In this document: in pieces, positions 1 to 22,967 of the stretch
Layout: each line of letters begins with the position of its first letter
Numbering within the stretch: position 1 is the first letter of the stretch
NCBI GenBank assembly: GCA_025093555.1
Contig: JAIWNF010000033.1
Location: 496,001 to 560,000, forward strand
Length of the DNA stretch: 64,000 nt
Source: Circinella umbellata
Lineage: Eukaryota > Mucoromycota > Mucoromycetes > Mucorales > Lichtheimiaceae
Direction: 5' to 3'
Program-made: the position numbers and the translations under genes
The notes under the pieces: model-generated
What the model was told of the DNA's origin: nothing
The model's database searches: none
The model's input: the letters and a program-made list of their open reading frames with translations, nothing else

Positions 1-786
1 GCGGGATAGTCACTTTAATAATACTATAGTATTAATAGTACTGGTGGTGATAAAAGAAAAGAGCACAGTTAGTGGCTCATAGTAGCGATAACTACTTTAT
101 CGCATTCAACATGATTATCCTATGATCACATTACAAAACAATATTAAATCAAGCTTTTTCACTTGGAATATATATAAATAGGTCTGCTACCTCCAGATAA
201 GCAAGCTTATTACTATTTTCTGTAGGGTTAATTTCTAAATCATCGGTGGTAGCAACGACCCCACAAGATGTTTAGTACAGTAGTCTACTCTATATTCTTC
301 TTCTCACACACAAAAGTTTTTCGGATGTATACCAAGATATTTCATATTTGTTATTACAGTAACTATTTAACTATTGTTGTACTTATTAGAATAATACAGC
401 CTACTTTATTACTCCAAGTCATAGATCACATTTATATTCTACTAGCAAATCTTATACACATATCTCGAATAAGAAAGAAACAAACCTATCTCAAAAACTG
501 CAGAATCATGTCCCAACATCTAGAAGTACTATAGACCACCTAGTACCAAATATAGTAATATCTAATCACTTCACTTCAAATGATCATATCTTGATGAAAA
601 ATCAACGAAAAATAATAAAATAAACTGTTTTAAAAACGTCAGAATCATCTCCAACGTCTCCAATCACCTTAGACATTTATAAAATATAAAGAAAATATAT
701 AAAAAAAAATTATTAAAAAAAAAAAAAATTACTGACCAAATCGCCGCAAAAATGATTTCTCAAGTTCTTTTTGAACTCGAATCTTT
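1..786. other. Outer tip of left arm, no gene seen
   Basis: AT-rich. Contains a perfect 16-base palindrome at 19-34 (TAATACTATAGTATTA) and A-runs at 701-728. The open frame at 268-534 has no recognisable protein features and I treat it as chance. The mirrored copy is 19436-20222. Confidence 0.6.
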
Positions 787-858
787 TAGCGACAGGTGGT
801 TTCGATCCACCGACCTTTGGGTTATGAGCCCAACGCGCTTCCTCTGCGCTATGTCGCT
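787..858 (-). tRNA. Initiator tRNA-Met (CAT), left arm copy
   Basis: 72-base tRNA folding perfectly: acceptor AGCGACA/TGTCGCT, D stem GCGC/GCGC, anticodon stem TTGGG/CCCAA around CTCATAA, T stem GGTGG/CCACC and discriminator A. Three G:C pairs in the anticodon stem, A1:U72 and a T-loop beginning with A (ATCGAAA) are hallmarks of eukaryotic initiator tRNA rather than elongator tRNA-Met. There is no intron. It is identical to the copy at 19364-19435. Confidence 0.95.
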
Positions 859-2387
859 CTCGGATGATTGTAGAAACGTCCGTTTGATGATATAGGACAA
901 AAAAAAGTATAAAAATGCAAAAAAACTAATAAAAGCTTAATTAAAGATGTAGCTTTAGGGCATGTGTGTGAATCACTAGTAAGTATATGGTGAACTTAAT
1001 ATCAGCGTGTAGAGAAAAAATAGGGCTATCGAATGGTATAGGTTGCATCAGAAGAGAGCAGTTGTATCAAAAGTTATTAATTTTTAAAGTTATTTCTTTA
1101 ATATTTTTTTATTAGAAACCTATATCATTATGATTTGCTATCTTTTTTTTTTTTTTTTTTTTTTGCCTCACGTTTTTTAAACCCAGCAATTTTGATGTAT
1201 AGTGAGGCTGGTATTAACAAAAAATAAAGAGATAGAAGCCATTATGGAAGAATAGCTAGATAGAATGCTATATATTTTAACAAAGTAATTTTGTACTTGG
1301 TTGGTAGTAGTTGCATAGAAACAATCTGCCTGTAGTAAAAATTTTACCATGGCAATGATATTGTAATAATAGACTAACTGTTGTTAGTTCCTTAAGAGAA
1401 ATGCTCGCTAGTTGTTGCTCTTTGATTCCTTCTTATTAATATTAATCCGGATAAAAAAGAAGGAACATTGAGGAAAGAATTATATCAGTAGTAGCCGTTA
1501 TAAACGGTTTTGGAGAATGATATAGAATCAGTACTTATAATAGATATCCCACCGATAATAAGATTTCATATACGTAAATAGAGATACTATTTTATTTCAA
1601 TAAACTTCAGTTCAATTTTGCTCTTTTGGGTCTCATTGACTTATCCATTGGTTCTTTATTTTACTGATTTTTAATTGATATAACACTTTTTTTATTATAC
1701 TTTTAAAAAAAGACTTATTTAATCGATTTATTATTAATACAAAACGAGGAGAGTATGTCTACAAAAGACTATATATTATTATTCTATACTGATGGCTATA
1801 AGTGCTGACTTAAGTCTATACTTGTGTAATGATATCATAGTCACTAAAGTAGCTGTATCGAAAGGACAGCTTTTTGTTGCTTATATATTAAACAAGGCTG
1901 CATTAAGGTATTTAACATGTTTCTTTCTAAAAATATATTATTTAAAAGAGAAAATAGCAGTTTATTATTCTTTACTAAAGGTACAGTTGAAAAATGTATC
2001 CAGAAAATTATTAATCCATTTTTAGATATCTTTGACCGAATTTATTTTTATTCAGAAAACTTGGCACATAGACATCATGTACCCCTACTTTTTATCTATC
2101 ATTTAAAAGTTCCAAGTTTTTGGATAGAAAGCTATTAGCCTTTTTTTTAAAAAAAGTATATAATAAGCTACATAATTAAGAAATAAAATATAACAGCATA
2201 TAACCGACTATTATAAAACTGCAATCAGGTTCGATGGATCAGTTTGCAAGGAAGCATAGCAGTAAATGGCTCGGTAAAGAAAAAGGCTCGGGATTATATC
2301 GATTATGGTTTTCCAGATACTAGGAAACCCTCTATCTATTTATATATGTTGAAATATTATGACCTAACTTACATCTAGCTAATATAT
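859..2387. other. Non-coding stretch of left arm
   Basis: AT-rich, with a 22-T run at 1143-1164. Small open frames (1792-2025, 1917-2138) look like chance. I see no gene. Confidence 0.6.
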
Positions 2388-2912
2388 TGTTACGTCCCGT
2401 TCGGATCGTTATTAATAAAATAAAAAGAAAATATAAGAAATTCCGAGTAAAAGACTCAAGGAATAAGGAAAGTTATATCAATAACTTATTCAATAAAAAG
2501 AAAAATAAAGAAAAGGGCGGTTTTTATAACCAGCAAATTCAACCGATCAAATAGTCGGGAAAATAGTTTATTTCAATAAAAATGAAAGAGAGCGAACTAA
2601 TTGTTATTTTGTGTGAAAGGAAGAAACTATCCTTTTTATACTAATTATTTGATTATTTAACTCCTTAATTCGAATCTTATTTCAGGTGGAATCGAATCCA
2701 ATTTCAGGTACGCATAGTTAACTCTTATTGGATAAAGGTGAAATTATTATTGACTGTAAAACTTCTTGTATTTATTTAAATAGAAATATTGGGATAAGAT
2801 TGATGATATTGATTGTACTGATAATAATAATAATAATAATGAAAAATAAATAAATAAATAAATTATGAGAAAAAAAAATTATATAAGGGAAAATCCCAAA
2901 TAGGAGGTAACA
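2388..2912. mobile_element. Solo-LTR-like element, left arm copy
   Basis: 525-base segment bounded by TGTTACG and GGTAACA, giving 6-base terminal inverted repeats TGTTAC/GTAACA. It is flanked on both sides by ATATAT, a possible 5-6 base target duplication although low in complexity. TG...CA ends and length fit a solo LTR of a retrotransposon. No internal region or primer-binding site follows. Orientation is not determined. The mirror copy is 17310-17834. Confidence 0.6.
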
Positions 2913-4448
2913 ATATATCTACTAATATCAATGGTCAACATTTCTACATAGAGTATCTATTCTAATGATTCTGTACTCAACCACATACTTAGCTGTGCTA
3001 TTGTTTATCCTTAGTATTCCGCCGATACGCATGTTGGCCAGCAACCTTATGGTCATCGTAATGGTCTTACACCATTACAGTAGTAGTAGTGTAAGAATGC
3101 CTTCAATATTTATACGTTACAGCACCATCTCTTTTTCTTCCACAGTATGCTTATTTTAAACTGGGACTCTGCTTCCAATTAAAATAGCCATTTTCTCAGT
3201 ATCTCTTCCAAGTTCTTTATTGTATGATCAAGTTGAACGTGGTCCCCCCCCCTTTTAATTAAAATTGGCGCAGAACACAAAAAATGTATTTCAGTATTGA
3301 ATCTAAAACCATCCTACGCTCTTTTTATTCATTTATTTGCCATAAAAAAAGAAGCACTGGTTAAATATGCTTACTTCTTTACTTCAACTACCTATTCTTA
3401 TAACTACTTTGGTATAATATAGACTAGTATTTGTCTTCTTTTCTTCGCTTTGGCTGGATGAGCTTCTACTGCGCGAAGATTGGTTGGTGTCTTGCAGAAA
3501 GTAAGTAAGGCACAATATGTACAGCAACCAAGGGTAAATAATTTCCTCTTGTCAGCAAAACTTTTTTTTTCACAAGATACATGTCATGATTACTAGCCCC
3601 TCATTTTTACTCTTTCAACATGCATCCCCCATTTTTTTTTGTTCAGTCCTTCTAATTTGGTCATTTACTATTATCTATTACTGCTGTGTTTTATTTATCA
3701 TAGCAAGAGAGCGTTTATATAGTTTTTGGTTGTCAGTCTCCTTTGTTATTACTTTTCTTTGTTTGTATGAAAAAAAATCCCATGCCAGTTTGCATATTAT
3801 TATAGCTTTATGAAGATACGACACTAGCTACACGTGTTCGATTTATTCATTAGTGTCATCCGATGATCTTTTTTTCCTTATGTTTAATAGTAGCAATATT
3901 CTTTTTATAGACGCTAGTAATTTACTGCTTTATTCTGGAAGTTGGAAATGTCTCGTATATTGTCTATGGTCACTGTTGTAATGATACTAATATGATCTTT
4001 TTATCCCAGATAAAATAAGAAATCATATTTAGACCAAACCTCAATTCTAAAAGGAAAATTGAGTAAACTTGCGTGATGATGTCCTGAACCCCCCTTCAAC
4101 TTAAAATAAAAAATATTATGACCAAGCCAATATATTTCATATTAATAGCTATAGTGACCTTCCTGATATTGATAACTAGCCCCACGTATCCAGCTTTAAC
4201 ATCAATCGTCTATATCAAATAATTAACCAAGCTTCATAACTCATAGAATTGAAAAAGTTTAAGTACGTTGGTGTTAAAAAATAGCTTTTTATTTTAGTCT
4301 TTAGAACTGTTATTAAAGTATATAACAAAGTATTAAAGAGTTTTATTTTGTTTGTTTTTATTTCCTACTATTATTAAAATAACTAAATATTACAAGTACT
4401 AAGTTATATTTTTACTAGAAATAATAAGACTCGCAACCTTGATATTCT
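2913..4448. other. Non-coding stretch of left arm
   Basis: AT-rich with a 9-C run at 3244-3252. Open frames 2965-3159 and 3586-3813 show no family features. I see no gene. Confidence 0.55.
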
Positions 4449-5326
4449 TTATTTTGTCAAATGACTCAAAATATCCTTTAATGTTCTGGGGATGGCTTTT
4501 GTGTTACCTGGATCGTCTGGGCAACCAGCTTCCAGACAGCCATATTCAAGGTTTCCTTGTTTCATGACGAGATCAACTTTCGTACCAATTATTTTCCTAT
4601 TAAGTTGACCTTCTTCATTGGTAGTGTGATGTAGATCCATTAGATACTGACACTTCATTGGTGAAGCAGTGAACGAGTCCGTCACAAGCTTTGGACCAAT
4701 CTGTTACTACTACATCTATAAAAAAGTATAAAGTACTCAGTCACAAAATTTTCAAAATAAAGAAACATATCTATATACTACACTAATAATGAAACATACT
4801 ATAGTCAAATTCAGCTCTTTGGCCACGGTATGAAATCTAGTTTTCCAAACTGATTGGAAAGCTTCACCAAGTTCTGTTTTAGCTACTAGAAATGGTGTGT
4901 TTTCTTTGACAAAATTACCAAGAGCTGGGCTTTTTCTTGTTTTATTTGCATTCTTGAAATAGTCCTCTATGACTATATATAATTATATATTTAACACCCG
5001 AGCAATCGTTTCCATAGTTACTCTTTTTTTATTACCTGGACGCCAGTCAAGGACTTGTACAAGTCAAGTTCGTCACCAAAGCTCTTGGCCAATATTACCC
5101 AGTCGCTAACAATGCTCATGCTACGCATTTTGAGAAGCTGGATGTTGGACTGTTGTCCTTTGATTGGAGGGCTGAATGGCGTTACTGTCACATGGCTGCG
5201 GCTTATCACAAAGTATTTCAATAAAAAGCATTTGAAGAGTTTCTTCAAAATGGCTTTGTGTTTGTTAAATGAAAACTTTCTTTTATCATCCGGTGGTGTT
5301 GCTTGTCCAGGATCTGACGCTTGTAT
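4449..5326 (-). pseudogene. Decayed gene fragment downstream of gene B (left copy)
   Basis: Reading on the minus strand, three short coding-like pieces follow gene B without a continuous frame: about 5248-5018, then about 4960-4800, then 4685-4449. The last contains a 'KVDLV...LEYGCLEAG...TLKDIL' pattern. From memory it resembles a large unnamed protein family that recurs in Mucorales genomes, which I cannot verify here. The pieces are separated by stops or introns, so I call it a fragment of unknown function. It is identical in the other arm (14896-15773). Confidence 0.35.
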
Positions 5327-7010
5327 TTATCTGTCAACTGCTTGGGTAATCAAAAATCCATCAGATGAATCAAGTGCTGCATACACAAGACCTAATGACC
5401 CTTCTACGCAATTATTTCGATTTTTGTAGTTGCGTTGGTTTAGAATTGTGGCGGCATCATGTTCATCCATGACTGGAACTTGTTCTTTATCTTCAAGGTC
5501 AAATTCGATAGCATCCAACATATCGTGGGCATAAAATGCGAATGCATCATAAGATAGACCATTATTTTCAGATGTGAGTACTTCTTGCTCAAGTTCTGGA
5601 CATCTGTGCATTGTATTTTTTGTCTTGTATAAAGACCGTCTGCAGAATATACATGTTGCAATGGTCAATCCACGATTGTCAGTTTGGTTCCAATGGGTTT
5701 CCGTCGACAAATCAAGTAAAGCCATTTTTTCTCGTTCCATTTGGTTTCTTTCCATATTTGCATGTGCACCATATATTCCTAGTTTTCTTTTCTTCAGGTA
5801 ATCATCTTCCTTCTTCATTTAAATCGCGGGTTGGGTCGCTGCTGAACGCGTTGGTCGAATACTGCATGTCTTTTCCAGATTTTGCGTGATGAAACCACTC
5901 GCGGTAGGCGTCACTGAATAGGGCAATCCCAGGCGGGCATGGAACAATAGAATATACAAGTCCTCGAGCAGTTCTTGAATCTTCCTGCGTTCAGACTGAA
6001 TTCGATCTTCTACGTCGGAAAGAGTTTGTTTTGCTTCATGTAAATGAAGTCCAAATGGATTGTTGTCCATGTATTGATTATATTCTTGACGGATATCTTG
6101 AAGCCAATTCAAAAGATCAGCGCGATTCTGTGGTTCTGTTTCACCATTATTAAGACGTTGTCGTACAATTCCCTCAAGCACCAGTGAACAGCAAATCTCT
6201 AAAAAGATTTCTTGTGCCTTCAGTTGCTGCAAAACAGGATCATATCTTAGAGAGCCAGGGTGACGCATCGGTACAAGTAATGCCAAATCCAAAGGATCTG
6301 GACCATAGGAGACGATTGAGACATTGCTAAAGTCTTCATTATATCGCGTAAAAAATCCAGTTGAGCTAAAGGCTGTGTTGATAATATTTTCAAAAAAAGT
6401 AAAATATCGCGGCTTATCAATCATATTCAAAAATCGCTCTGTTGGTCCTTTTCAAGCAGTTTCAAGTAAATCAAGATGAAATATGCTGAATAGAAGGTGA
6501 CATATTAATGTTATAATCAAAGGACAAAACCGACGCAGATAACGACAGAAATATAGAATCCCAACAAGCGAGACTTGTTATATCATAATAGATAGACATC
6601 GATAATTATAATTCTGAGCTGCGGACATTTCCAGAAGCGAGAGTAAAAAGAACCTTGTAGGCTTCTTGTACAGAGCTACTGTCAGTAGCTCTCCGGTATT
6701 CAACAGAACTATTGAACGTTTTTCTGATAATACCTTTTCTAGTTGATACTGATATTATGTGTTTGTTGACTAAATTACGAGGGATGCGTATGAGAAAAAA
6801 GAAGAAGACAATAATTATTATATTGACTTGATGAAAATGACATATAACAGTTAGCATACCTAAATCTCTAACAGTTGAGCAAGAGCATCATTAGGAATTA
6901 GCATTCTCATCAACGCGTTTTCCTGTCTTTTATTAAATTGTGCATAATCGTCGAAATGGTCTTGAATATGCTGCTGTTCAACTGAGGCAGAGTGTTCCGC
7001 AAAATATATA
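5327..7010 (-). pseudogene. Gene B, broken paralogue of gene A (left copy)
   Basis: Homologous to gene A from its second exon onward. It matches around the 'GPDPLDLAL..PMRHPGSLR' block (gene A: 'GPDDTDLAL..PMRHPGSLR'), the 'LLNWLQDIRQEYN' block, and the CCHC motif (C-x2-C-x11-H-x-C). Lesions: no counterpart of gene A exon 1 (the GIY-YIG-like part), a TGA at 6452-6454 where gene A has Trp in 'TAWK', another stop region near 6590-6610, a frame break near 5820, and an early stop right after 'QAVDR' where gene A goes on for about 155 residues. The same lesions are in the right-arm copy. Confidence 0.8.
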
Positions 7011-7938
7011 TATTGCCCTTATTTTAACTTGGCCACACATCTCCTTTCCAAGTTTAAAGCCACAATAGTTGTAAATAAGATCGGTTTCCTTTTTATGAAG
7101 TTATCTTTTATTGAAAAGAGTGGAAAAAAAAACCACGATGGAAAATAAAGAAATGCATTTTATCAACCACTGACTTTAAAACAATTAAAATAGGGGCAAT
7201 TGTATGATATATAGAAGGCACCCTTAGTCGTGCCATCCTACGGCTGTGCTATTGATCCTCTCTTGCTATCCTGCCATCTTCTAAGTTCAAGTTTACCACA
7301 TTATACTTGGTAATATGATATATAGCTTGTATTACTCTTATTTACCAGCAAGTTAATTATGAATATTTTTTTATTTAAATCCTATTCACCTAAAGAAGTG
7401 ATAGTTCTGGCTAAAAATGGATGTACATAATATATGTTGTTAGTCTTGACGTTTCTAAAAATATCTTATACACACTTTGTCCTATTCATTTTTTTTTATA
7501 ATAGCTGCTATGGGTAATTTATGTTTTGTTTTTACTACAAGTTTGGTATGCTATTTTATCTTTTCTTGGCCAAATCCTGCTATATCTATTCTATTATAAT
7601 ATATTATAAAATACATTATATTTTCATACAGTTACTTGAAACTGTACTTATATTATATCAACAGCACAAATGACGTAGTATTTACATATGAATACAGCTA
7701 TATATACTATAAGAGCCCCATAGCATAAGATATAATATCTCTGTGCCCATATTTTATTATATTACGATTATTGTCACTTTTAACATATATCATTCCGAAA
7801 GAACTTGAGTATATAATAAAAGCATAACATTATAATATACAATAATATTAGTGGTGTTCTCTCTATAAACGTAAAACAAGCATCTGTTATGTAGCTAACT
7901 AATATTTCTCATTATAAATTGAGTATAAAAACATTCGG
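7011..7938. other. Non-coding stretch of left arm upstream of gene B
   Basis: AT-rich, no open frame of note. It holds the A/G difference between arms at 7067 and ends at the identity breakpoint 7938. Confidence 0.6.
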
Positions 7939-8500
7939 GCTAGTTACATGAACAAATATTTGCTAAAATACTGGCTAGCATCTGTATCATGAAGAAGAGT
8001 GTAATTTATTGCTACGTATAATTAAATCATTCATTGTTGGCCTTTCAAAAGGCACTTATCATTATACTGAAACCAATGATAACTTGTAAAAAAGAAACAA
8101 GTTCTTCTATAATAGCAATACGTGTGTGTTCATTGACATTATAAAGTGTACATTTATATTATACAAGCAGTAGTTTATCAATAAAAGGAATAATCATTGA
8201 TAACTATTGTGGTTACAAAGACAATAAGGACTAACAGCTTTCAAGCTAACTTCTTCTGGATTTGACAATACTACTGGTATTTATTTTTTAATTGGTACGT
8301 GCGTAATGATATGAAAATGACAATGACAATAAAGGAAAAAATGAACAAGGAGGTAACACTTATACTTGAGAAAAATAGAAATAATAATGATAATATTATA
8401 AATATTTTTTCAGAATGATTAGTTATTCATGTCACTTTCATTTTTTAATTTGGCCGGTACATGACTGGGTCCACCTGCCAGTCTCTTGGATCGTATGTTA
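7939..8500. repeat. Inner, diverged part of inverted repeat (left)
   Basis: Continues the palindrome inward but with many substitutions and indels against 11787-12283. One left-only stretch of about 80 bases follows 7945. Long shared blocks remain, for example around the sequence near 8270-8330 and the 3' end of gene A near 8445-8490. It covers the 3' flank and last codons of gene A, so it marks an older inverted duplication than the near-identical arms. Confidence 0.85.
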
Positions 8501-11500
8501 GAAGCCTACGACAATAAGCGAACCATAAGAATCGTTGAACAGACATTGGTAATCGATTAAACTCCGTGAGATATTCCCCAAACGTGCATCTTGCCTGGCG
8601 CCGAAGTAAGCCATGTTTGTGTTGTTCGTTCCGTAGTATGGGTCGGCGATTTCTTGAAGAGCCACTTCTTGCAGGGATTCGTATGCTGTAATAGTTACAC
8701 CGGTCGTTTAAATCATTCACACCACATCTTGTTTCACACAGAGGATATTGCCGTAAATTTGGAGTCGAAAAATAATTGATTAATGCATTTCTTGTCTGCT
8801 GCGTTTGGATAACAAATTCGTCATCACGTTCCACTAAATCAATTCTTCCTTCCGTATTGTAAATGATTTCTTTATCAACCGCCATCATCCTTACAAAATC
8901 CTGGGTTGTATCAGTTCTACCAATGCAATAAACCACACCCAACGAACCAGCTTCATAGTGGACTACCCGATTCGCAGCATTATTTATTTCTGTTGCTGCG
9001 TCAAACTCCTCAACCTCCATTAAATCGACATCGTCATCGGAAAGCAGTTCAAGCGCATCATGGGCATAGAAAACTAAAGTATAGTTTAGACCATCCGATT
9101 GTGCGTTCATCGGAGTATCGTCCAATTCAGGGCAGATATGGGGAACATTATGGAATTTGAAAAAGCGATGATCACAAAACATACAATGAGCGATTTTAAA
9201 TCCGGAATCAGGTACTTGATCATTCCACTGTGTTGGATCCATAAGTATTCTCAATATATTATCAGTGCGCTGTATTTCGTTTACTTGACGATTTGCGCTA
9301 GCACCATAACGCCCCATTGATCGTCTACGAAGATACTCGTCTCTTTCTTCCTCAGTCAAATTCGTCATTGGATTGTTACCAGTAGCATTAGCAACTCTGT
9401 ATATAATAGTACCAGGACGAGCGTTCATAAACCATGTTCTATAAACAGCTTCCACGGGATTTTCAATTTGTAAAGGACAAGGAACAATCCTGTTCACTCT
9501 TCCTCTAGCTTGTCTATCTTGGTAGATAGCTCGTAATTGTTGGAGCTGATTTGCTCTTATAGTGCCATTTATTTCGCCCAAAAAGCGCAATGGTTCACTA
9601 CGTGAGGTCTGGGGACCATACTGGCGCTGGACAATTCGCTGTTCATTTAAATTGTTTCTTGTGCGAGCATCTAATCAAAAATAATAATAAAAAGTGTCTT
9701 TTATGAATATGTATAAACATAAACATATACGCTTCAATGTGGTTGTTGCTGTTTTTTAAAAAAGTTAGTAGATAATGTTTTACCTGCTATTCTCAGAGCC
9801 AAAATAGTGCTCTCTCTGGTCTGTAACATATTTTTTATATTGTTTAATCTTCTATGCAAATCATTGTCAGTCACAATTCTGTTGTATTCATTACGTATAT
9901 CTTGCAGCCACTGAAGTAGCGCACCGTGCTCATTTGGACGTACTTCGCCATTATGCAACCGACGACGGACAATCATGTCTAGGACATTTGAGCAGCATGC
10001 AACCAAAAATATCTCCTCAGCTTTATAATGCGCTAAAGCAGGGTCGTGTCGAAGAGACCCGGGATGTCGCATTGGTATCATAAGGGCTAAATCGGTGTCA
10101 TCTGGTCCATACATTACGATTGAAACTTCTCCAATATATTCACGATATGTCTCTTCAAACGCAGTAGTTGGATAGCCCGTCCGAATAAAATCTCCAAATC
10201 TTGTAAAGTTATTTGGTGATGTTGTTTGCTCTAAAAATCTAGACCGCACATCACGGCTTTTCCATGCGGTTTTAAAGAGATCGATGTCAAACATGCTAAA
10301 CACTTGGTGAGATAGAGTAATAATTATTATCGGCTTTGTCACTTTGATATAACGGCATAAATAGGGCATTGAAATAAGAAACTGCTGCTGTGGGGAAAGT
10401 GAGAACAAATCGACGAATGTTGGGTATGTAAAATGTCTTTCTTGAGTATTTGGAGCGTTCGAATATAATAGTTGATAAATTTCTTGAAGGAAATGTGGCG
10501 ATACGGATGCGTCTTCCCAAAATGTATGTGCGGCTATGGCAAATGCTCTTTGGGTAATGTCCTTGCCAACCATAACCGAAACAGTTTGATTATTAAGTAC
10601 ATTCTGTGGGGTGCCTAATATATATAAAGAATAAAAGAATTGCTTATATTAGATTCTGCTGATTTCTTTACAGATTGCAAAAATCATTGTTATTTACCTT
10701 GTCTAATTGCAGTATTTACTAAAATATTGTTAGGGGTAGGAGCATTAATAACACGTTGTGTTGATTGTTGTCTGATAAAGTTGGCCTGGTCATTGAAATG
10801 TTGAATAATAACTTGTTCTCGTTGATATGACAAGCGATTCAAAACAAAAAACTGTGAATAGTTGATTTGTTCAGCGACTGTAGTCCAGAGGTTCTACATA
10901 TTTTCAGAAGATAAAAGTAATTGAAGTTTAGAAAAACGTAACGTTAACGGAAGCATAGAGAAATCAATTCACATATACGTACTAATAAATCTTGATTTGG
11001 GTGCCAATCTATATAAAAACCTCCATTGGCGGAATTTAGTGCTGTGGGCCCACACGACTTTATCAAGATGTCTTCTATGTAGCCTGCTTCGACTAAGCTC
11101 ATATCTTCGGTAATATTCGTAAGGTTTAATACTTGATAAACTTGCCATTGAGGATTATTCGCGACTTCATAAAAGTTTCTGAATCTTGATGCTGATCGAT
11201 GGGAGATATCATGAACTAATCGCATGTTTGGCGTCGAGCGATGCGTAAAACCAGCATATATTATAGTAATAAGAGGAACATTAGCTAAATCATTCAACTG
11301 TCCTCGAACATGGTTTATCCAGTCAATATCGTAAGAGTGGGAAAGCTCGTATAAATTCAAAATATCGCCAATGGCTGGTACAGTAAAATTTGCACATCGC
11401 AAATAATATTCGGGGACATCGGTGGTTTGGATAACATCTTGATTTTCAGGAAGATCATCACCGATAGCTGGTGTCAACACCACATTTGTATGATGTAAAA

Positions 11501-11672
11501 CATTGGGATGGTCTGCAGGGTTAAAAGTAAGTGGATTTTCCAACAGCTCCTGAAACATATGGTAATGGTCGTCATTGAATGAATTCCATATCGGGTGTTG
11601 CTGGTTTATGGGTCTCTGACTTCGTTGGGCACGTCGTTCAATAATTCGCAATTGGATGTTATTAATGTCCAT
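8445..11672 (-). CDS. Gene A: GIY-YIG-like / CCHC-motif protein, unknown family
   Basis: Four exons on the minus strand: 11672-10983, 10893-10698, 10614-9784 and 9670-8445. All have GT-AG introns and phases that close (980 residues). Exon 1 residues 137-215 look like a GIY-YIG nuclease core: YAG (139-141), R151 and H154 following it, E195 in a helix, N213 in 'ALN'. The leading GIY triad is not obvious. The middle carries a conserved block 'GPDDTDLALMIPMRHPGSLR'. A C735-x2-C738-x11-H750-x-C752 motif follows. The frame is uninterrupted over 2.9 kb of coding sequence, unlike its broken paralogue gene B. I do not recognise the whole protein. It could belong to a mobile element. The nuclease reading is an inference from residue pattern only. 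The start was chosen as the Met before 'DINNIQ', since the longer frame upstream is hydrophobic junction sequence. Confidence 0.75.
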
Positions 11673-11786
11673 TTGATAAAGTATGTAGAAAGAAAATACT
11701 AGTGAATACGGTTGTTGTTGATAAAATAGAATAAAGGATATAAAATAAGAAAGCAGAAATAAATGTAAAGGAGAGTTCGCGTGGAC

Positions 11787-12283
11787 CATTTAATCCAAGA
11801 GACTGGCAGGTGGACTTGGTCATGTACCAGCCAAATTAAAAAATGAAAGTGACTTGATTAAGTAATTATGATGTAAAAATAATCATAGTATTATCATTAT
11901 TATGTTTATATTTCTCAAGTATGATAATAGTATTATCCCCCCTATTCATTTTATATTCTTTATCGTCATTGTCATTTTCATATCATTACGTACGTACCAA
12001 TTAAAAAATAAATACCAGTAGTATTGTCAAATCCAGAAGTTAGCTTAAAAGCTGTCAGTCCTTATTGTTTTTGTAGCCACAATAGTTATCAATGATTATT
12101 CCTTTTATTAATAGTAAACTACTGCTAGTATAATATAAATGTACACTTAAAGTCAATGCACACACACGTATTGCTACTATAAAAAAACTTGTTTCTTTTT
12201 TCTTGGTTATCATTGGTTTCAGTATAATAACAGCTGCTTTTTTAAAAACTAACAATGAATGATTCAATATATGTGGAACTAAG
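11787..12283. repeat. Inner, diverged part of inverted repeat (right)
   Basis: Counterpart of about 7939-8500. It begins with a remnant of the last codons of a second gene A copy and continues through the former 3' flank. By eye the identity is roughly 85-90% with indels, against nearly 100% in the outer arms. Confidence 0.85.
11793..11839 (+). pseudogene. 3'-end remnant of a second gene A copy
   Basis: The plus strand reads 'PRDWQVDLVMYQPN' then TAA, against the gene A C-terminus 'PRDWQVDPVMYRPN'. Only the last 14 codons and the 3' flank survive. It shows that gene A once lay in both halves of the inverted repeat. The breakpoint is at about 11787-11793, some 115 bases upstream of the surviving gene A start. 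Confidence 0.85.
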
Positions 12284-13211
12284 CCGAATGTTTTTATACT
12301 CAATTTATAATGAGAAATATTAGTTAGCTACATAACAGATGCTTGTTTTACGTTTATAGAGAGAACACCACTAATATTATTGTATATTATAATGTTATGC
12401 TTTTATTATATACTCAAGTTCTTTCGGAATGATATATGTTAAAAGTGACAATAATCGTAATATAATAAAATATGGGCACAGAGATATTATATCTTATGCT
12501 ATGGGGCTCTTATAGTATATATAGCTGTATTCATATGTAAATACTACGTCATTTGTGCTGTTGATATAATATAAGTACAGTTTCAAGTAACTGTATGAAA
12601 ATATAATGTATTTTATAATATATTATAATAGAATAGATATAGCAGGATTTGGCCAAGAAAAGATAAAATAGCATACCAAACTTGTAGTAAAAACAAAACA
12701 TAAATTACCCATAGCAGCTATTATAAAAAAAAATGAATAGGACAAAGTGTGTATAAGATATTTTTAGAAACGTCAAGACTAACAACATATATTATGTACA
12801 TCCATTTTTAGCCAGAACTATCACTTCTTTAGGTGAATAGGATTTAAATAAAAAAATATTCATAATTAACTTGCTGGTAAATAAGAGTAATACAAGCTAT
12901 ATATCATATTACCAAGTATAATGTGGTAAACTTGAACTTAGAAGATGGCAGGATAGCAAGAGAGGATCAATAGCACAGCCGTAGGATGGCACGACTAAGG
13001 GTGCCTTCTATATATCATACAATTGCCCCTATTTTAATTGTTTTAAAGTCAGTGGTTGATAAAATGCATTTCTTTATTTTCCATCGTGGTTTTTTTTTCC
13101 ACTCTTTTCAATAAAAGATAACTTCATAAAAAGGAAACCGATCTTATTTACAACCATTGTGGCTTTAAACTTGGAAAGGAGATGTGTGGCCAAGTTAAAA
13201 TAAGGGCAATA
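11840..13211. other. Diverged repeat then right-arm non-coding stretch
   Basis: Up to 12283 this is the diverged mirror of gene A's 3' flank. From 12284 it is identical to the left arm. No gene is seen. The open frame 12055-12303 has no supporting features. Confidence 0.6.
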
Positions 13212-14895
13212 TATATATTTTGCGGAACACTCTGCCTCAGTTGAACAGCAGCATATTCAAGACCATTTCGACGATTATGCACAATTTAATAAAAGACAGG
13301 AAAACGCGTTGATGAGAATGCTAATTCCTAATGATGCTCTTGCTCAACTGTTAGAGATTTAGGTATGCTAACTGTTATATGTCATTTTCATCAAGTCAAT
13401 ATAATAATTATTGTCTTCTTCTTTTTTCTCATACGCATCCCTCGTAATTTAGTCAACAAACACATAATATCAGTATCAACTAGAAAAGGTATTATCAGAA
13501 AAACGTTCAATAGTTCTGTTGAATACCGGAGAGCTACTGACAGTAGCTCTGTACAAGAAGCCTACAAGGTTCTTTTTACTCTCGCTTCTGGAAATGTCCG
13601 CAGCTCAGAATTATAATTATCGATGTCTATCTATTATGATATAACAAGTCTCGCTTGTTGGGATTCTATATTTCTGTCGTTATCTGCGTCGGTTTTGTCC
13701 TTTGATTATAACATTAATATGTCACCTTCTATTCAGCATATTTCATCTTGATTTACTTGAAACTGCTTGAAAAGGACCAACAGAGCGATTTTTGAATATG
13801 ATTGATAAGCCGCGATATTTTACTTTTTTTGAAAATATTATCAACACAGCCTTTAGCTCAACTGGATTTTTTACGCGATATAATGAAGACTTTAGCAATG
13901 TCTCAATCGTCTCCTATGGTCCAGATCCTTTGGATTTGGCATTACTTGTACCGATGCGTCACCCTGGCTCTCTAAGATATGATCCTGTTTTGCAGCAACT
14001 GAAGGCACAAGAAATCTTTTTAGAGATTTGCTGTTCACTGGTGCTTGAGGGAATTGTACGACAACGTCTTAATAATGGTGAAACAGAACCACAGAATCGC
14101 GCTGATCTTTTGAATTGGCTTCAAGATATCCGTCAAGAATATAATCAATACATGGACAACAATCCATTTGGACTTCATTTACATGAAGCAAAACAAACTC
14201 TTTCCGACGTAGAAGATCGAATTCAGTCTGAACGCAGGAAGATTCAAGAACTGCTCGAGGACTTGTATATTCTATTGTTCCATGCCCGCCTGGGATTGCC
14301 CTATTCAGTGACGCCTACCGCGAGTGGTTTCATCACGCAAAATCTGGAAAAGACATGCAGTATTCGACCAACGCGTTCAGCAGCGACCCAACCCGCGATT
14401 TAAATGAAGAAGGAAGATGATTACCTGAAGAAAAGAAAACTAGGAATATATGGTGCACATGCAAATATGGAAAGAAACCAAATGGAACGAGAAAAAATGG
14501 CTTTACTTGATTTGTCGACGGAAACCCATTGGAACCAAACTGACAATCGTGGATTGACCATTGCAACATGTATATTCTGCAGACGGTCTTTATACAAGAC
14601 AAAAAATACAATGCACAGATGTCCAGAACTTGAGCAAGAAGTACTCACATCTGAAAATAATGGTCTATCTTATGATGCATTCGCATTTTATGCCCACGAT
14701 ATGTTGGATGCTATCGAATTTGACCTTGAAGATAAAGAACAAGTTCCAGTCATGGATGAACATGATGCCGCCACAATTCTAAACCAACGCAACTACAAAA
14801 ATCGAAATAATTGCGTAGAAGGGTCATTAGGTCTTGTGTATGCAGCACTTGATTCATCTGATGGATTTTTGATTACCCAAGCAGTTGACAGATAA
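13212..14895 (+). pseudogene. Gene B, broken paralogue of gene A (right copy)
   Basis: Mirror image of 5327-7010. Readable segments are about 13212-13361 (matches gene A exon 2), about 13550-13616 and 13640-13767 (exon 3 start), 13771-14403 (exon 3) and 14404-14895 (exon 4 with the CCHC motif). TGA at 13768-13770 replaces a Trp codon. No GIY-YIG exon lies upstream, and the C-terminal 155 residues of gene A are absent. The segments 13792-14403 and 14404-14895 translate identically in both arms. Confidence 0.8.
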
Positions 14896-15773
14896 ATACA
14901 AGCGTCAGATCCTGGACAAGCAACACCACCGGATGATAAAAGAAAGTTTTCATTTAACAAACACAAAGCCATTTTGAAGAAACTCTTCAAATGCTTTTTA
15001 TTGAAATACTTTGTGATAAGCCGCAGCCATGTGACAGTAACGCCATTCAGCCCTCCAATCAAAGGACAACAGTCCAACATCCAGCTTCTCAAAATGCGTA
15101 GCATGAGCATTGTTAGCGACTGGGTAATATTGGCCAAGAGCTTTGGTGACGAACTTGACTTGTACAAGTCCTTGACTGGCGTCCAGGTAATAAAAAAAGA
15201 GTAACTATGGAAACGATTGCTCGGGTGTTAAATATATAATTATATATAGTCATAGAGGACTATTTCAAGAATGCAAATAAAACAAGAAAAAGCCCAGCTC
15301 TTGGTAATTTTGTCAAAGAAAACACACCATTTCTAGTAGCTAAAACAGAACTTGGTGAAGCTTTCCAATCAGTTTGGAAAACTAGATTTCATACCGTGGC
15401 CAAAGAGCTGAATTTGACTATAGTATGTTTCATTATTAGTGTAGTATATAGATATGTTTCTTTATTTTGAAAATTTTGTGACTGAGTACTTTATACTTTT
15501 TTATAGATGTAGTAGTAACAGATTGGTCCAAAGCTTGTGACGGACTCGTTCACTGCTTCACCAATGAAGTGTCAGTATCTAATGGATCTACATCACACTA
15601 CCAATGAAGAAGGTCAACTTAATAGGAAAATAATTGGTACGAAAGTTGATCTCGTCATGAAACAAGGAAACCTTGAATATGGCTGTCTGGAAGCTGGTTG
15701 CCCAGACGATCCAGGTAACACAAAAGCCATCCCCAGAACATTAAAGGATATTTTGAGTCATTTGACAAAATAA
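14896..15773 (+). pseudogene. Decayed gene fragment downstream of gene B (right copy)
   Basis: Mirror of 4449-5326. Pieces lie at 14974-15204 (ending at a possible GTAATA donor), about 15260-15420, and 15537-15773 (stop TAA). The sequence begins exactly where homology between genes A and B stops, so it is joined to gene B by rearrangement. Function unknown. Confidence 0.35.
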
Positions 15774-17309
15774 AGAATATCAAGGTTGCGAGTCTTATTA
15801 TTTCTAGTAAAAATATAACTTAGTACTTGTAATATTTAGTTATTTTAATAATAGTAGGAAATAAAAACAAACAAAATAAAACTCTTTAATACTTTGTTAT
15901 ATACTTTAATAACAGTTCTAAAGACTAAAATAAAAAGCTATTTTTTAACACCAACGTACTTAAACTTTTTCAATTCTATGAGTTATGAAGCTTGGTTAAT
16001 TATTTGATATAGACGATTGATGTTAAAGCTGGATACGTGGGGCTAGTTATCAATATCAGGAAGGTCACTATAGCTATTAATATGAAATATATTGGCTTGG
16101 TCATAATATTTTTTATTTTAAGTTGAAGGGGGGTTCAGGACATCATCACGCAAGTTTACTCAATTTTCCTTTTAGAATTGAGGTTTGGTCTAAATATGAT
16201 TTCTTATTTTATCTGGGATAAAAAGATCATATTAGTATCATTACAACAGTGACCATAGACAATATACGAGACATTTCCAACTTCCAGAATAAAGCAGTAA
16301 ATTACTAGCGTCTATAAAAAGAATATTGCTACTATTAAACATAAGGAAAAAAAGATCATCGGATGACACTAATGAATAAATCGAACACGTGTAGCTAGTG
16401 TCGTATCTTCATAAAGCTATAATAATATGCAAACTGGCATGGGATTTTTTTTCATACAAACAAAGAAAAGTAATAACAAAGGAGACTGACAACCAAAAAC
16501 TATATAAACGCTCTCTTGCTATGATAAATAAAACACAGCAGTAATAGATAATAGTAAATGACCAAATTAGAAGGACTGAACAAAAAAAAATGGGGGATGC
16601 ATGTTGAAAGAGTAAAAATGAGGGGCTAGTAATCATGACATGTATCTTGTGAAAAAAAAAGTTTTGCTGACAAGAGGAAATTATTTACCCTTGGTTGCTG
16701 TACATATTGTGCCTTACTTACTTTCTGCAAGACACCAACCAATCTTCGCGCAGTAGAAGCTCATCCAGCCAAAGCGAAGAAAAGAAGACAAATACTAGTC
16801 TATATTATACCAAAGTAGTTATAAGAATAGGTAGTTGAAGTAAAGAAGTAAGCATATTTAACCAGTGCTTCTTTTTTTATGGCAAATAAATGAATAAAAA
16901 GAGCGTAGGATGGTTTTAGATTCAATACTGAAATACATTTTTTGTGTTCTGCGCCAATTTTAATTAAAAGGGGGGGGGACCACGTTCAACTTGATCATAC
17001 AATAAAGAACTTGGAAGAGATACTGAGAAAATGGCTATTTTAATTGGAAGCAGAGTCCCAGTTTAAAATAAGCATACTGTGGAAGAAAAAGAGATGGTGC
17101 TGTAACGTATAAATATTGAAGGCATTCTTACACTACTACTACTGTAATGGTGTAAGACCATTACGATGACCATAAGGTTGCTGGCCAACATGCGTATCGG
17201 CGGAATACTAAGGATAAACAATAGCACAGCTAAGTATGTGGTTGAGTACAGAATCATTAGAATAGATACTCTATGTAGAAATGTTGACCATTGATATTAG
17301 TAGATATAT
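15774..17309. other. Non-coding stretch of right arm
   Basis: Mirror of 2913-4448, AT-rich, with a 9-G run at 16970-16978. I see no gene. Confidence 0.55.
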
Positions 17310-17834
17310 TGTTACCTCCTATTTGGGATTTTCCCTTATATAATTTTTTTTTCTCATAATTTATTTATTTATTTATTTTTCATTATTATTATTATTATTA
17401 TCAGTACAATCAATATCATCAATCTTATCCCAATATTTCTATTTAAATAAATACAAGAAGTTTTACAGTCAATAATAATTTCACCTTTATCCAATAAGAG
17501 TTAACTATGCGTACCTGAAATTGGATTCGATTCCACCTGAAATAAGATTCGAATTAAGGAGTTAAATAATCAAATAATTAGTATAAAAAGGATAGTTTCT
17601 TCCTTTCACACAAAATAACAATTAGTTCGCTCTCTTTCATTTTTATTGAAATAAACTATTTTCCCGACTATTTGATCGGTTGAATTTGCTGGTTATAAAA
17701 ACCGCCCTTTTCTTTATTTTTCTTTTTATTGAATAAGTTATTGATATAACTTTCCTTATTCCTTGAGTCTTTTACTCGGAATTTCTTATATTTTCTTTTT
17801 ATTTTATTAATAACGATCCGAACGGGACGTAACA
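17310..17834. mobile_element. Solo-LTR-like element, right arm copy
   Basis: Reverse complement of 2388-2912: begins TGTTACC, ends CGTAACA, flanked by ATATAT. It was present before the arms were duplicated or last homogenised. Confidence 0.6.
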
Positions 17835-19363
17835 ATATATTAGCTAGATGTAAGTTAGGTCATAATATTTCAACATATATAAATAGATAGAGGGTTTCCT
17901 AGTATCTGGAAAACCATAATCGATATAATCCCGAGCCTTTTTCTTTACCGAGCCATTTACTGCTATGCTTCCTTGCAAACTGATCCATCGAACCTGATTG
18001 CAGTTTTATAATAGTCGGTTATATGCTGTTATATTTTATTTCTTAATTATGTAGCTTATTATATACTTTTTTTAAAAAAAAGGCTAATAGCTTTCTATCC
18101 AAAAACTTGGAACTTTTAAATGATAGATAAAAAGTAGGGGTACATGATGTCTATGTGCCAAGTTTTCTGAATAAAAATAAATTCGGTCAAAGATATCTAA
18201 AAATGGATTAATAATTTTCTGGATACATTTTTCAACTGTACCTTTAGTAAAGAATAATAAACTGCTATTTTCTCTTTTAAATAATATATTTTTAGAAAGA
18301 AACATGTTAAATACCTTAATGCAGCCTTGTTTAATATATAAGCAACAAAAAGCTGTCCTTTCGATACAGCTACTTTAGTGACTATGATATCATTACACAA
18401 GTATAGACTTAAGTCAGCACTTATAGCCATCAGTATAGAATAATAATATATAGTCTTTTGTAGACATACTCTCCTCGTTTTGTATTAATAATAAATCGAT
18501 TAAATAAGTCTTTTTTTAAAAGTATAATAAAAAAAGTGTTATATCAATTAAAAATCAGTAAAATAAAGAACCAATGGATAAGTCAATGAGACCCAAAAGA
18601 GCAAAATTGAACTGAAGTTTATTGAAATAAAATAGTATCTCTATTTACGTATATGAAATCTTATTATCGGTGGGATATCTATTATAAGTACTGATTCTAT
18701 ATCATTCTCCAAAACCGTTTATAACGGCTACTACTGATATAATTCTTTCCTCAATGTTCCTTCTTTTTTATCCGGATTAATATTAATAAGAAGGAATCAA
18801 AGAGCAACAACTAGCGAGCATTTCTCTTAAGGAACTAACAACAGTTAGTCTATTATTACAATATCATTGCCATGGTAAAATTTTTACTACAGGCAGATTG
18901 TTTCTATGCAACTACTACCAACCAAGTACAAAATTACTTTGTTAAAATATATAGCATTCTATCTAGCTATTCTTCCATAATGGCTTCTATCTCTTTATTT
19001 TTTGTTAATACCAGCCTCACTATACATCAAAATTGCTGGGTTTAAAAAACGTGAGGCAAAAAAAAAAAAAAAAAAAAAAGATAGCAAATCATAATGATAT
19101 AGGTTTCTAATAAAAAAATATTAAAGAAATAACTTTAAAAATTAATAACTTTTGATACAACTGCTCTCTTCTGATGCAACCTATACCATTCGATAGCCCT
19201 ATTTTTTCTCTACACGCTGATATTAAGTTCACCATATACTTACTAGTGATTCACACACATGCCCTAAAGCTACATCTTTAATTAAGCTTTTATTAGTTTT
19301 TTTGCATTTTTATACTTTTTTTTGTCCTATATCATCAAACGGACGTTTCTACAATCATCCGAG
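17835..19363. other. Non-coding stretch of right arm
   Basis: Mirror of 859-2387, with a 22-A run at 19058-19079. No gene seen. Confidence 0.6.
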
Positions 19364-19435
19364 AGCGACATAGCGCAGAGGAAGCGCGTTGGGCTCATAA
19401 CCCAAAGGTCGGTGGATCGAAACCACCTGTCGCTA
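19364..19435 (+). tRNA. Initiator tRNA-Met (CAT), right arm copy
   Basis: Identical to 787-858 on the other strand, with the same perfect cloverleaf and initiator hallmarks (A1:U72, GGG/CCC in the anticodon stem, T-loop ATCGAAA). A five-T run at 19470-19474 is a likely RNA polymerase III terminator. Confidence 0.95.
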
Positions 19436-20222
19436 AAAGATTCGAGTTCAAAAAGAACTTGAGAAATCATTTTTGCGGCGATTTGGTCAGTAATTTTTTT
19501 TTTTTTTTAATAATTTTTTTTTATATATTTTCTTTATATTTTATAAATGTCTAAGGTGATTGGAGACGTTGGAGATGATTCTGACGTTTTTAAAACAGTT
19601 TATTTTATTATTTTTCGTTGATTTTTCATCAAGATATGATCATTTGAAGTGAAGTGATTAGATATTACTATATTTGGTACTAGGTGGTCTATAGTACTTC
19701 TAGATGTTGGGACATGATTCTGCAGTTTTTGAGATAGGTTTGTTTCTTTCTTATTCGAGATATGTGTATAAGATTTGCTAGTAGAATATAAATGTGATCT
19801 ATGACTTGGAGTAATAAAGTAGGCTGTATTATTCTAATAAGTACAACAATAGTTAAATAGTTACTGTAATAACAAATATGAAATATCTTGGTATACATCC
19901 GAAAAACTTTTGTGTGTGAGAAGAAGAATATAGAGTAGACTACTGTACTAAACATCTTGTGGGGTCGTTGCTACCACCGATGATTTAGAAATTAACCCTA
20001 CAGAAAATAGTAATAAGCTTGCTTATCTGGAGGTAGCAGACCTATTTATATATATTCCAAGTGAAAAAGCTTGATTTAATATTGTTTTGTAATGTGATCA
20101 TAGGATAATCATGTTGAATGCGATAAAGTAGTTATCGCTACTATGAGCCACTAACTGTGCTCTTTTCTTTTATCACCACCAGTACTATTAATACTATAGT
20201 ATTATTAAAGTGACTATCCCGC
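19436..20222. other. Outer tip of right arm, no gene seen
   Basis: Mirror of 1-786 with one extra base in the T-run at 19495-19509. It carries the same 16-base palindrome near 20189-20204. Confidence 0.6.
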
Positions 20223-20226
20223 TTGT

Positions 20227-20300
20227 CAGTGGTAATTATGACATTCTGAAGCCCTCAGGAACTTTGTCGGTCAGGCTTGATAAATGTCAGAATACCACTG
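20227..20300. repeat. 74-bp imperfect hairpin just outside the palindrome
   Basis: Ends are CAGTGGTA and TACCACTG (8-base perfect inverted repeat). Further pairing comes from TGACATT/AATGTCA and AAGCC/GGCTT around a loop of about 20 bases. It looks like a MITE-scale hairpin or a solo terminal inverted repeat. The left mirror position lies outside the window. Confidence 0.6.
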
Positions 20301-22967
20301 GCGCAGATAACTAATCACTATTGTTATTACTGCTGGTATGATAATATCTTTGGCCGTATATAAAAAGTATTCCCATTCCATGTGGCCACAACATCCAATA
20401 ACAATGGCATTGAAACGTAAATTAAATGTCTAAATACATACAACTTTACTTTTACTACCTGCATGAAAGATTTAATATCGGTATTGTATATACACCATAC
20501 AAGTGAAATAACAGTGTATTGTATTGTTACTATTTTTTTTTTTTTTGGAAAGTGTGGTTTATTATCATACCTAAATTAAATATAGGTAATATCACTATTA
20601 AAGCGTTCAATGTGTGCTTAAAGTACTTTGTATAAATGTAGTTGTATTTGGATAGAAGTTTTAGTTATGGGAGTTCTTATATGCATGGATATATTACGCC
20701 TGAATCCACAAAAGGGAAATCTTATGATGAGCTTAAGAGACTTTATGCTCAAAGAAAACTATTGTCAGGTCAATAATCTAATTATTAAAAGACTAAAAAA
20801 ATTCAAAAGGTAAAGATATAAATAATTATACTACTAGCAATACCTGGATTACGGCATTACGTGAACCAATAAGATCACGTAGCATAGCTGCTTGTGACAC
20901 TACAATACTAATAATAATAGTAATAATAACGTTGATATAAAGTTGTTTTCAATTTTTATACGTTACAATACAAAGAAATAAGAATAGATATATTAAAATA
21001 GGACGTAACAATGTCCTGAGCCTCTGCAACAACTTTAGCTACTTTTCAAAAAATGGATCAATGTATCTAGTCATTCTTTGTGAACTTATGGTGTTTCGTC
21101 GCAAGACGACATAGTTTGTCATTTTTATCAAGCTGCCATTTTCATGTTTATTGTTAAGATTATACGAGTATTTGTAGCACCAAACGCCATAAGTCCAATC
21201 ACACGTTATCCACATTGTTAGTTAAATGCTGCAAGGGCACATTCTTGTAAGTCTGACAATCACCAAAAGTTTTTAATCTACGCGTTGTCAAAATAAGACC
21301 TCATTGAATACTTTTGAGAATTCCATCTGCCGAACTACAGTGCACAGAGTGTTTACCCCAAATAGGTGATACATGCCAAATTTTCGGATCAAAAAGGTGT
21401 TTCAGAGTATTTCCAATGGCAGAGGTGTACATTGTTGTTGCCTTACTTTTGTGTCTCTATTTCTAATTGAATACGTTTTCGTTGCTGTAGATTACATCAT
21501 AAGAGTCTTGTATGGTGTAGTTTTACAATCTTATATTGCAAAATGAGTTGAGTAGGGAAAATATTACTAATCCCTCAAGTAAGATCCAAGCTTAAATATT
21601 TGTAGCATTGTCAAGAGTCACTCGAGCTTTTTTTAAAAGTGGTGTCCCAAATATTCCGTATGACGATATCGGGTTTTGGTGTCTTAGGAGAATAGTGGTC
21701 TTGTTAACTGGATTGTACTTTACTTATCTATGTTCGAGGAAGCATGTAGAAAAAGTGTTGCCTTCATCTTATTTTTCATTATCAATCACGGCTTTGGAGC
21801 ATTTTGCTAATCCCAAAACATTAATAATCTCGGGAATACTTGACTTTAGTTTTCTTTTATCCTACTTTTGCTACTTATTGGGCTTGTTGATTAGTAAAAA
21901 TGGAGGCCTTTGGGGTTGTTGGGTTTATCTTGACAATGTACTTGTTTGTACCAGCAAAATAACTACTACAAAACATTCTTTTGTCTTCTATTTCCGAGTT
22001 ATCTTACTATCTATTGTAATTATGCATAACTGCTGTATTACTCAAAGTGGAAAGCTACCAATTTGAAATAGTGATGAAGTTATCACTCCCAGAATAAAGA
22101 AAAAAATAATGGTTTACTTCATGTACCATGTCGATTCACAAAGAGGTAAATCAAACATATTAATTAATTATCAAATAATCACATCTCGATAAGCATATAA
22201 CAAGTAACATTTATATACTCTCATACTATAAAATGAATAGTATAAATATTAGCTAGAAAAACTAACACTGTTACTATGAATGTATTTTTTAGTGGAGCAA
22301 AAGTTTCACAATCGGGAATAGTACGTAGTATACAGACAAAATGGCTTGTATAAATTAATTATTACATGAAAAGAAAAAAGGATCATGCACTACTCTGATA
22401 TATAGCCAAGTCTATCCGAATATTTCCAACGGTGGTCTTCAAATCAATAGCTAATATTGTGTTGTACTAAGAGTGATTTTTTTTGGGTGGGCGGACTGAA
22501 AAACATGTCAGGTAAAGTAAGAGTAAAGCTTAGCAGAGAAAAATGAATATATTTAAATAACTTTAGTATTATATCTCTTTTAAATCATAGATGTTTCTTA
22601 ACAGAGGTCATATATAGTCCGAAGATCAATTCTTCTGAATGCAAGTATGCGTTATGTTTATATTGGTATTATTAAACTAATTGTAGAAAAGATACAGTGC
22701 CGATTAAAACTTTTTAAAAAACACACAGTCAGCACACATATGAAAACCAACATGGGAGATATTAACAGTTACTTCAAGCTAGAGAATTCTTTGCTTTGTT
22801 TGATCTATTTTGAGAAGTGACACAAGGATTACCTGGCGGAGTAAGTAGTGTGCCTCTTTTCTAAAAAAGTATGCCTGGATTATAAGCCCTTTAAGAATTT
22901 AGCTTGGATAGTTGTTTCGGGTCATTTTCAAACAATCAAAACAACCAAAAGAAAAAAAAAAAGAAAA
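20301..22967. other. Gene-poor stretch with possible decayed fragments
   Basis: No intact gene found. Plus strand 20650-20770 contains a short protein-like run ending 'YDELKRLYAQRKLLSG' before a stop. Minus strand about 21430-21050 contains frame-broken protein-like runs such as 'IWHVSPIWGKHSVHC' and 'TRYIDPFFEK'. The 152-codon frame at 21608-22066 lacks a recognisable family. An LTR-like end GGACGTAACA lies near 21001-21011, matching one end of the solo LTRs. These look like relics of repeated elements. Confidence 0.4.

Follow-up and report, generated by a model that had tools for sequence, protein, structure and literature searches.

How the two arms of a long palindrome can come to be almost free of differences, and whether such likeness says anything about the age of the palindrome, is the question raised by a locus of the mucoralean fungus Circinella umbellata. 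The window considered here is a stretch of 64 kb (positions 496001-560000 of contig C138) from an assembly that comprises 210 contigs and 50.8 Mb, to which 30 kb of contig sequence upstream and 10 kb downstream were added; negative coordinates lie to the left of window base 1. The whole analysis is based on this one assembly. A preliminary description had reported a near-perfect palindrome of 20.2 kb. The palindrome is indeed present in the assembly, but the length given was that left by the window edge, which cuts the palindrome, and the arms reach to -1749 and 21933. We think it probable that the locus is an old inverted duplication, both arms of which were recently overwritten by gene conversion, i.e., by homologous recombination between the inverted arms. 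No description of this palindrome was found among the titles and abstracts that the literature searches listed.

The homologous arms occupy positions -1749 to 8491 and 11793 to 21933 of the contig, with a total span of 23.7 kb that includes a unique centre of 3.3 kb. Within the window, the repeat finder paired 1-728 with 19495-20222 and 701-7948 with 12274-19521 as inverted repeats at 100% identity. The centre had been taken for 4.3 kb of unique sequence, but it is edged by a further inverted repeat of 475 bp (8017-8491 and 11793-12271) with 86.4% identity, and only the 3.3 kb inside this repeat are without an inverted partner. When the left arm is aligned with the reverse complement of the right arm, the palindrome divides into the following zones, to which no strand is assigned:

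1..7938, extending beyond the window to -1305: left arm, near-identical core, aligned to 12284-21527
12284..21527: right arm, near-identical core, reverse complement of -1305..7938
21528..21933: right outer shoulder, diverged, with its partner (-1749..-1306) off the window
7939..8491: left inner shoulder, a diverged inverted repeat aligned to 11793-12283, carrying the 3' end of the central gene
11793..12283: right inner shoulder, a diverged inverted repeat aligned to 7939..8491
8492..11792: unique centre, without inverted partner

The core contains a single substitution (7067/13155) and two 1-bp homopolymer gaps (-324/20547 and 714/19508) in 9243 aligned bases, which corresponds to 99.99% identity; the one substitution and one homopolymer difference noticed earlier in the window are thus confirmed by the full alignment. 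An inverted match of 9.24 kb with a single substitution cannot be due to chance. The shoulders are different. The outer one (-1749..-1306 vs 21528..21933) has 14 substitutions in 406 aligned bases and one 38-base gap (10 substitutions under an alternative placement of the gap), and the inner one (7939..8491 vs 11793..12283) has 60 substitutions in 480 aligned bases and 7 gap runs. Fisher tests separate the core from the outer shoulder (p = 6e-19) and from the inner shoulder (p = 6e-79), and the two shoulders also differ from each other in divergence (p = 6e-7). Past -1749 and 21933 the arm alignment finds no relation between the flanks, so the shoulders are the remains of the same palindrome. 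With diverged homologous sequence on both of its sides, the near-identical core therefore sits in a palindrome that existed before it became so uniform.

The picture expected of gene conversion, a near-identical tract lying within older and more diverged homology, is the one found here, and of the origins listed in the preliminary description gene conversion is the best supported. The 38-base gap lies approximately 17 bases outside the outer end of the core, and a gap of approximately 67 bases begins approximately 15 bases inside its inner end. Large indels at both ends would be left behind if copying by homologous recombination was halted near heterologies. The inner inverted repeat would then be the oldest part of the locus, from which a fold-back duplication of the arm could have started; later, in a single conversion event or a few of them, one arm would have been copied over the other, with copying ending near the indels. 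The same recombination is predicted to yield crossovers that invert the centre from time to time, and conversion itself is predicted to recur. In Saccharomyces, gene conversion is an established cause of the homogenisation of inverted repeats (PMC9731477), and further support comes from a second, patchy inverted repeat on contig C21 of the same genome, which is described below.

Several points weigh against gene conversion as the explanation. It is read from a single assembly; a single tract of 9.2 kb is long, and several events may be needed; and the shoulders differ so strongly from each other that at least two earlier ages are required. Also, the GC content of the arms (0.321) is not above that of the flanks (0.343 and 0.338), so that GC-biased conversion is not seen. 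Such a bias was reported for the palindromes of primate X chromosomes, which likewise have arms more than 99% alike that are maintained by gene conversion (PMC8981503); the Circinella palindrome differs from them in the absence of a GC rise in the arms and in that, as far as is known, it is not on a sex chromosome.

The presence of inverted homology at the edges of the spacer bears on another way to obtain similar arms, a single recent fold-back duplication, in which a break is followed by pairing of the pre-existing inner repeat and by outward copying of the arm, with no conversion afterwards. The 475-bp repeat with 86% identity and a distance of 3.3 kb between its copies is of a suitable kind: in a human set, 3 of the 21 sequenced junctions fell within repeats of 82-95% identity (PMC3907307), and yeast repeats diverged by up to 25% and separated by up to 30 kb are able to react in single-stranded DNA (PMC10164571). 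Identity also jumps at the outer end of this 475-bp repeat. A single fold-back event, however, gives the arm a single age, and a single age along the copied arm is not what the alignment contains, since the outer 406 aligned bases hold 14 substitutions and the 38-base gap against one substitution in the 9243 bases of the core; this would call for a burst of errors confined strictly to the outer end. The human fold-back duplications (PMC3907307) share with the Circinella locus a spacer edged by short diverged inverted repeats and followed by an inverted duplication, whereas in Circinella three ages or more are seen in the arms and the duplication lies inside a contig. We therefore regard fold-back duplication without later conversion as rather unlikely. 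The data agree with a fold-back origin and later conversion, while fold-back alone leaves the outer shoulder unexplained. The same difficulty is met by the earlier suggestion that the whole palindrome is of very recent origin, which does not account for the diverged flanks of the core.

The assembler or the polishing may also have created identity of this degree, or have raised it, and the real arms may then differ by a few per cent. Two of the three differences in the core are homopolymer lengths, a common sequencing error, which is in line with such an artefact. On the other hand, long reads that are anchored would be able to resolve the sequence for kilobases into the core, whereas identity shifts within tens of bases; the one substitution of the core was kept; and independent long-read assemblies of yeast inverted repeats are consistent with each other (PMC9731477). 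We consider homogenisation by the assembly procedure unlikely.

The centre contains an intact orphan gene, and each arm contains a decayed relative of it:

8445..11672, minus strand: central gene, 980 aa, with exons 11672-10983, 10893-10698, 10614-9784 and 9670-8445
5303..6568, minus strand: left-arm relative of the central gene, decayed, with 38-47% amino acid identity in three pieces and broken frames
13654..14919, plus strand: right-arm copy of the same decayed relative

The spliced prediction has four exons, GT-AG introns and no internal stop, and its product is identical across 980 aa to a deposited hypothetical protein of C. umbellata, BDC45DRAFT_571105. In searches with this protein, no Pfam family was matched at the cut-off (the best one was a B domain with an E-value of 0.055), three exon open reading frames (ORFs) of the gene gave no Pfam match, and the sequences of the PDB returned only five matches with E-values of 1.2 to 2. 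The AlphaFold model, made without an alignment, had a mean pLDDT of 31 and no residue at 70 or above. In two single-protein searches, the deposited protein itself was the sole match, while with a profile that included pieces of paralogues three further unnamed proteins were found, each of which matches exon 3, with 64-74% identity. The family of the central gene probably exists outside the C. umbellata genome, because two of these three proteins run into the same intron boundary as the central gene. Inside the genome, diverged pieces related to the central gene are present on contigs C192, C124, C133, C189, C200, C166 and C168. As the right inner shoulder is a mirror of the gene's 3' end, two divergent copies of the gene may once have been present in the centre, with one of them lost later.

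Three of the loci of this family have neighbours that deserve mention on their own. Pieces with matches to PF04827 (Plant_tran) and DDE_Tnp_4, a transposase, are located at C192:2281-3448 between pieces of the family copy of that contig. A 1.57-kb sequence at C189:967662-969229, which directly adjoins a decayed family copy, is its own reverse complement at 95.4% without a spacer and looks like a fold-back element. Finally, an inverted repeat of 669 bases with 95.5% identity and a short spacer (C133:506375-507040 and 507293-507948) lies near a decayed family copy.

A gene of a multi-locus family with decayed copies that is flanked by inverted repeats calls to mind a mobile element whose terminal inverted repeats would be very long; an inverted-duplication mobile element had been one of the first suggestions for this locus. 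A second locus with the inner inverted repeat and the outer end of the arm was, however, not found in the genome search of the assembly, no shared terminal repeat was seen at the paralogous loci, which match through pieces of the gene, and the central protein stays below the Pfam cut-off for any domain, including those of mobility proteins. Each arm does contain a dispersed repeat, for which no strand is assigned:

3973..4395: dispersed repeat, left arm, position mirrored from 15827-16249
15827..16249: dispersed repeat, right arm, the source of 34 of the 43 match rows

This repeat of approximately 420 bp has at least 34 further copies with approximately 69-73% identity, most of them sharing one end base. 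It accounts for the 34 rows of the arm-match search, in which 40 of 247 candidates were scored; other matches to pieces of the arm elsewhere in the assembly were, among the candidates scored, short diverged stretches only. That the palindrome is a mobile element is therefore very improbable.

A unique core inside near-identical inverted repeats is also the layout of the centromeres of Candida tropicalis and Schizosaccharomyces pombe (PMC7292649, PMC4059236). In C. tropicalis, repeats of 3-4 kb surround a core of approximately 3 kb (PMC7292649), and the inverted repeats of fission yeast centromeres may stay identical through recombination (PMC4059236), so that a centromere with inverted repeats and tRNA genes, as in these yeasts, would resemble the locus in several ways. 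Yet the Circinella core is not free of genes, as it holds an intact spliced one, and with a GC content of 0.382 it is GC-richer than the flanks. Neither the centre nor pieces of the arms were found in near-identical copy on other contigs among the best candidates, unlike what a centromere of the C. tropicalis type would lead one to expect. Moreover, Mucor lusitanicus is described as having AT-rich, point-like cores within retrotransposon-rich regions and no CENP-A (PMC10977804). We give the centromere hardly any chance. As to the proposal that the palindrome is a chromosome-end structure, the distances to the contig ends are approximately 494 kb and 83 kb, and neither TTAGGG nor CCCTAA occurs in the 3 kb at each contig end, although contig ends may differ from chromosome ends; the proposal is not borne out.

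The rest of the palindrome and its surroundings offered few recognisable sequences. A Pfam scan of nine pieces of arms and flanks gave nothing over the cut-off, and of the ten ORFs of the window that were scanned, the three with matches are all outside the palindrome. The outer part of the arm (20948-22003, minus strand), together with its left mirror, resembles decayed coding sequence with many stops, and three pieces of it had no Pfam match. In one piece of the neighbouring gene on the left, a STAG domain was recognised. The right-hand neighbour resembled a DHHC palmitoyltransferase by eye, but its scanned pieces gave no Pfam match and this assignment was dropped.

What each arm does contain is a tRNA gene:

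787..858, minus strand: tRNA-Met(CAT) of the initiator type, left arm
19364..19435, plus strand: right-arm tRNA-Met(CAT) of the initiator type, with the same sequence as the left copy

The two identical genes have A as the first base opposite U72, a GGG/CCC anticodon stem and an AUCGAAA T-loop, which we take to be initiator features. A search of the assembly with 91 bases returned two places, both in the palindrome. The pattern GGGCNCATAACCC occurs in three places, namely the two palindrome tRNAs and GGGCACATAACCC on contig C164; the latter is presumably a chance match. A control pattern had one match. A D-arm pattern allowing up to one mismatch was found in eight places (three for its control) and was exact only in the two palindrome tRNAs. 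The tRNA family search, which is not a census, yielded 58 matches from 63 of 2136 candidates scored. Apparently, both recognised initiator tRNA-Met genes of the 50.8-Mb assembly are within the palindrome, with no other among the matches found.

Could the tRNA genes be the reason for the likeness of the arms? When the 58 tRNA rows were read by eye for pairs with equal scores on the same contig within 20 kb, three pairs were obtained, all in opposite orientation: the tRNA-Met pair of the palindrome, a tRNA-Thr(AGT) pair on C138 and a tRNA-Ala(TGC) pair on C21. A pair on C47 has unequal scores and is not among these, and a tRNA-Arg pair on C168 was not counted, as it consists of two different isoacceptors amid many small repeats. 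The tRNA-Thr genes lie in the two arms of an inverted repeat with 96.4% identity over 358 bases (C138:343351-343708 and 347349-347703). The tRNA-Ala genes lie in the arms of the C21 repeat (19263-20470 and 35051-36920), where 97.7% identity over 695 bases is found beside 89.4% over 521 bases, a patchiness of 12/691 vs 52/502 differences (p = 6e-11). High-identity inverted repeats without a tRNA pair were seen in 2 of the 17 stretches scanned, which amount to 210,500 bases (on C133 and C189).

One could imagine that in this early-diverging fungus tRNA-anchored inverted repeats form a class kept alike by repeated conversion, and that the palindrome is its largest member, an essential one which holds all initiator tRNA-Met genes, with arms that repair each other and a centre that can flip together with its orphan gene. 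Three pairs are few, however, and on C21 the tRNA-Ala belongs to the patch of lower similarity, an argument against tRNA genes as the driver of arm identity; we find the proposal unlikely. That selection keeps the arms alike on account of the initiator tRNA genes is a guess.

The closest known case is that of the flip/flop repeats of Saccharomyces chromosome XIV (PMC9731477). These are inverted repeats homogenised by gene conversion, as the arms of the Circinella palindrome probably are; each of them again has a tRNA gene (tRNA-Ile), and a genus-restricted protein family is a further parallel. The yeast repeats are 4.2 kb long, 97.6% identical in S288C and separated by 24 kb with 15 genes; they are found across strains and species, their inversion is proven and they apparently grew from an inverted tRNA pair (PMC9731477). 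The Circinella palindrome, by contrast, has a core of 9.24 kb at 99.99% identity, 4.3 kb with one gene between its arms, an initiator tRNA and a single assembly to represent it. The statement in the preliminary description that such palindromes are rare outside sex chromosomes overlooks the homogenised inverted repeats of yeasts (PMC9731477, PMC7292649).

As shown here, the identity of its arms does not date a palindrome. What pressure keeps some inverted repeats homogenised could not be named by the authors of the yeast flip/flop work (PMC9731477). A mucoralean case in which a tRNA gene is again present in each arm, and in which no other gene for this tRNA is apparent in the assembly, would offer an independent test system, one that could separate tRNA genes, tRNA dosage and mere proximity as the driver of homogenisation.

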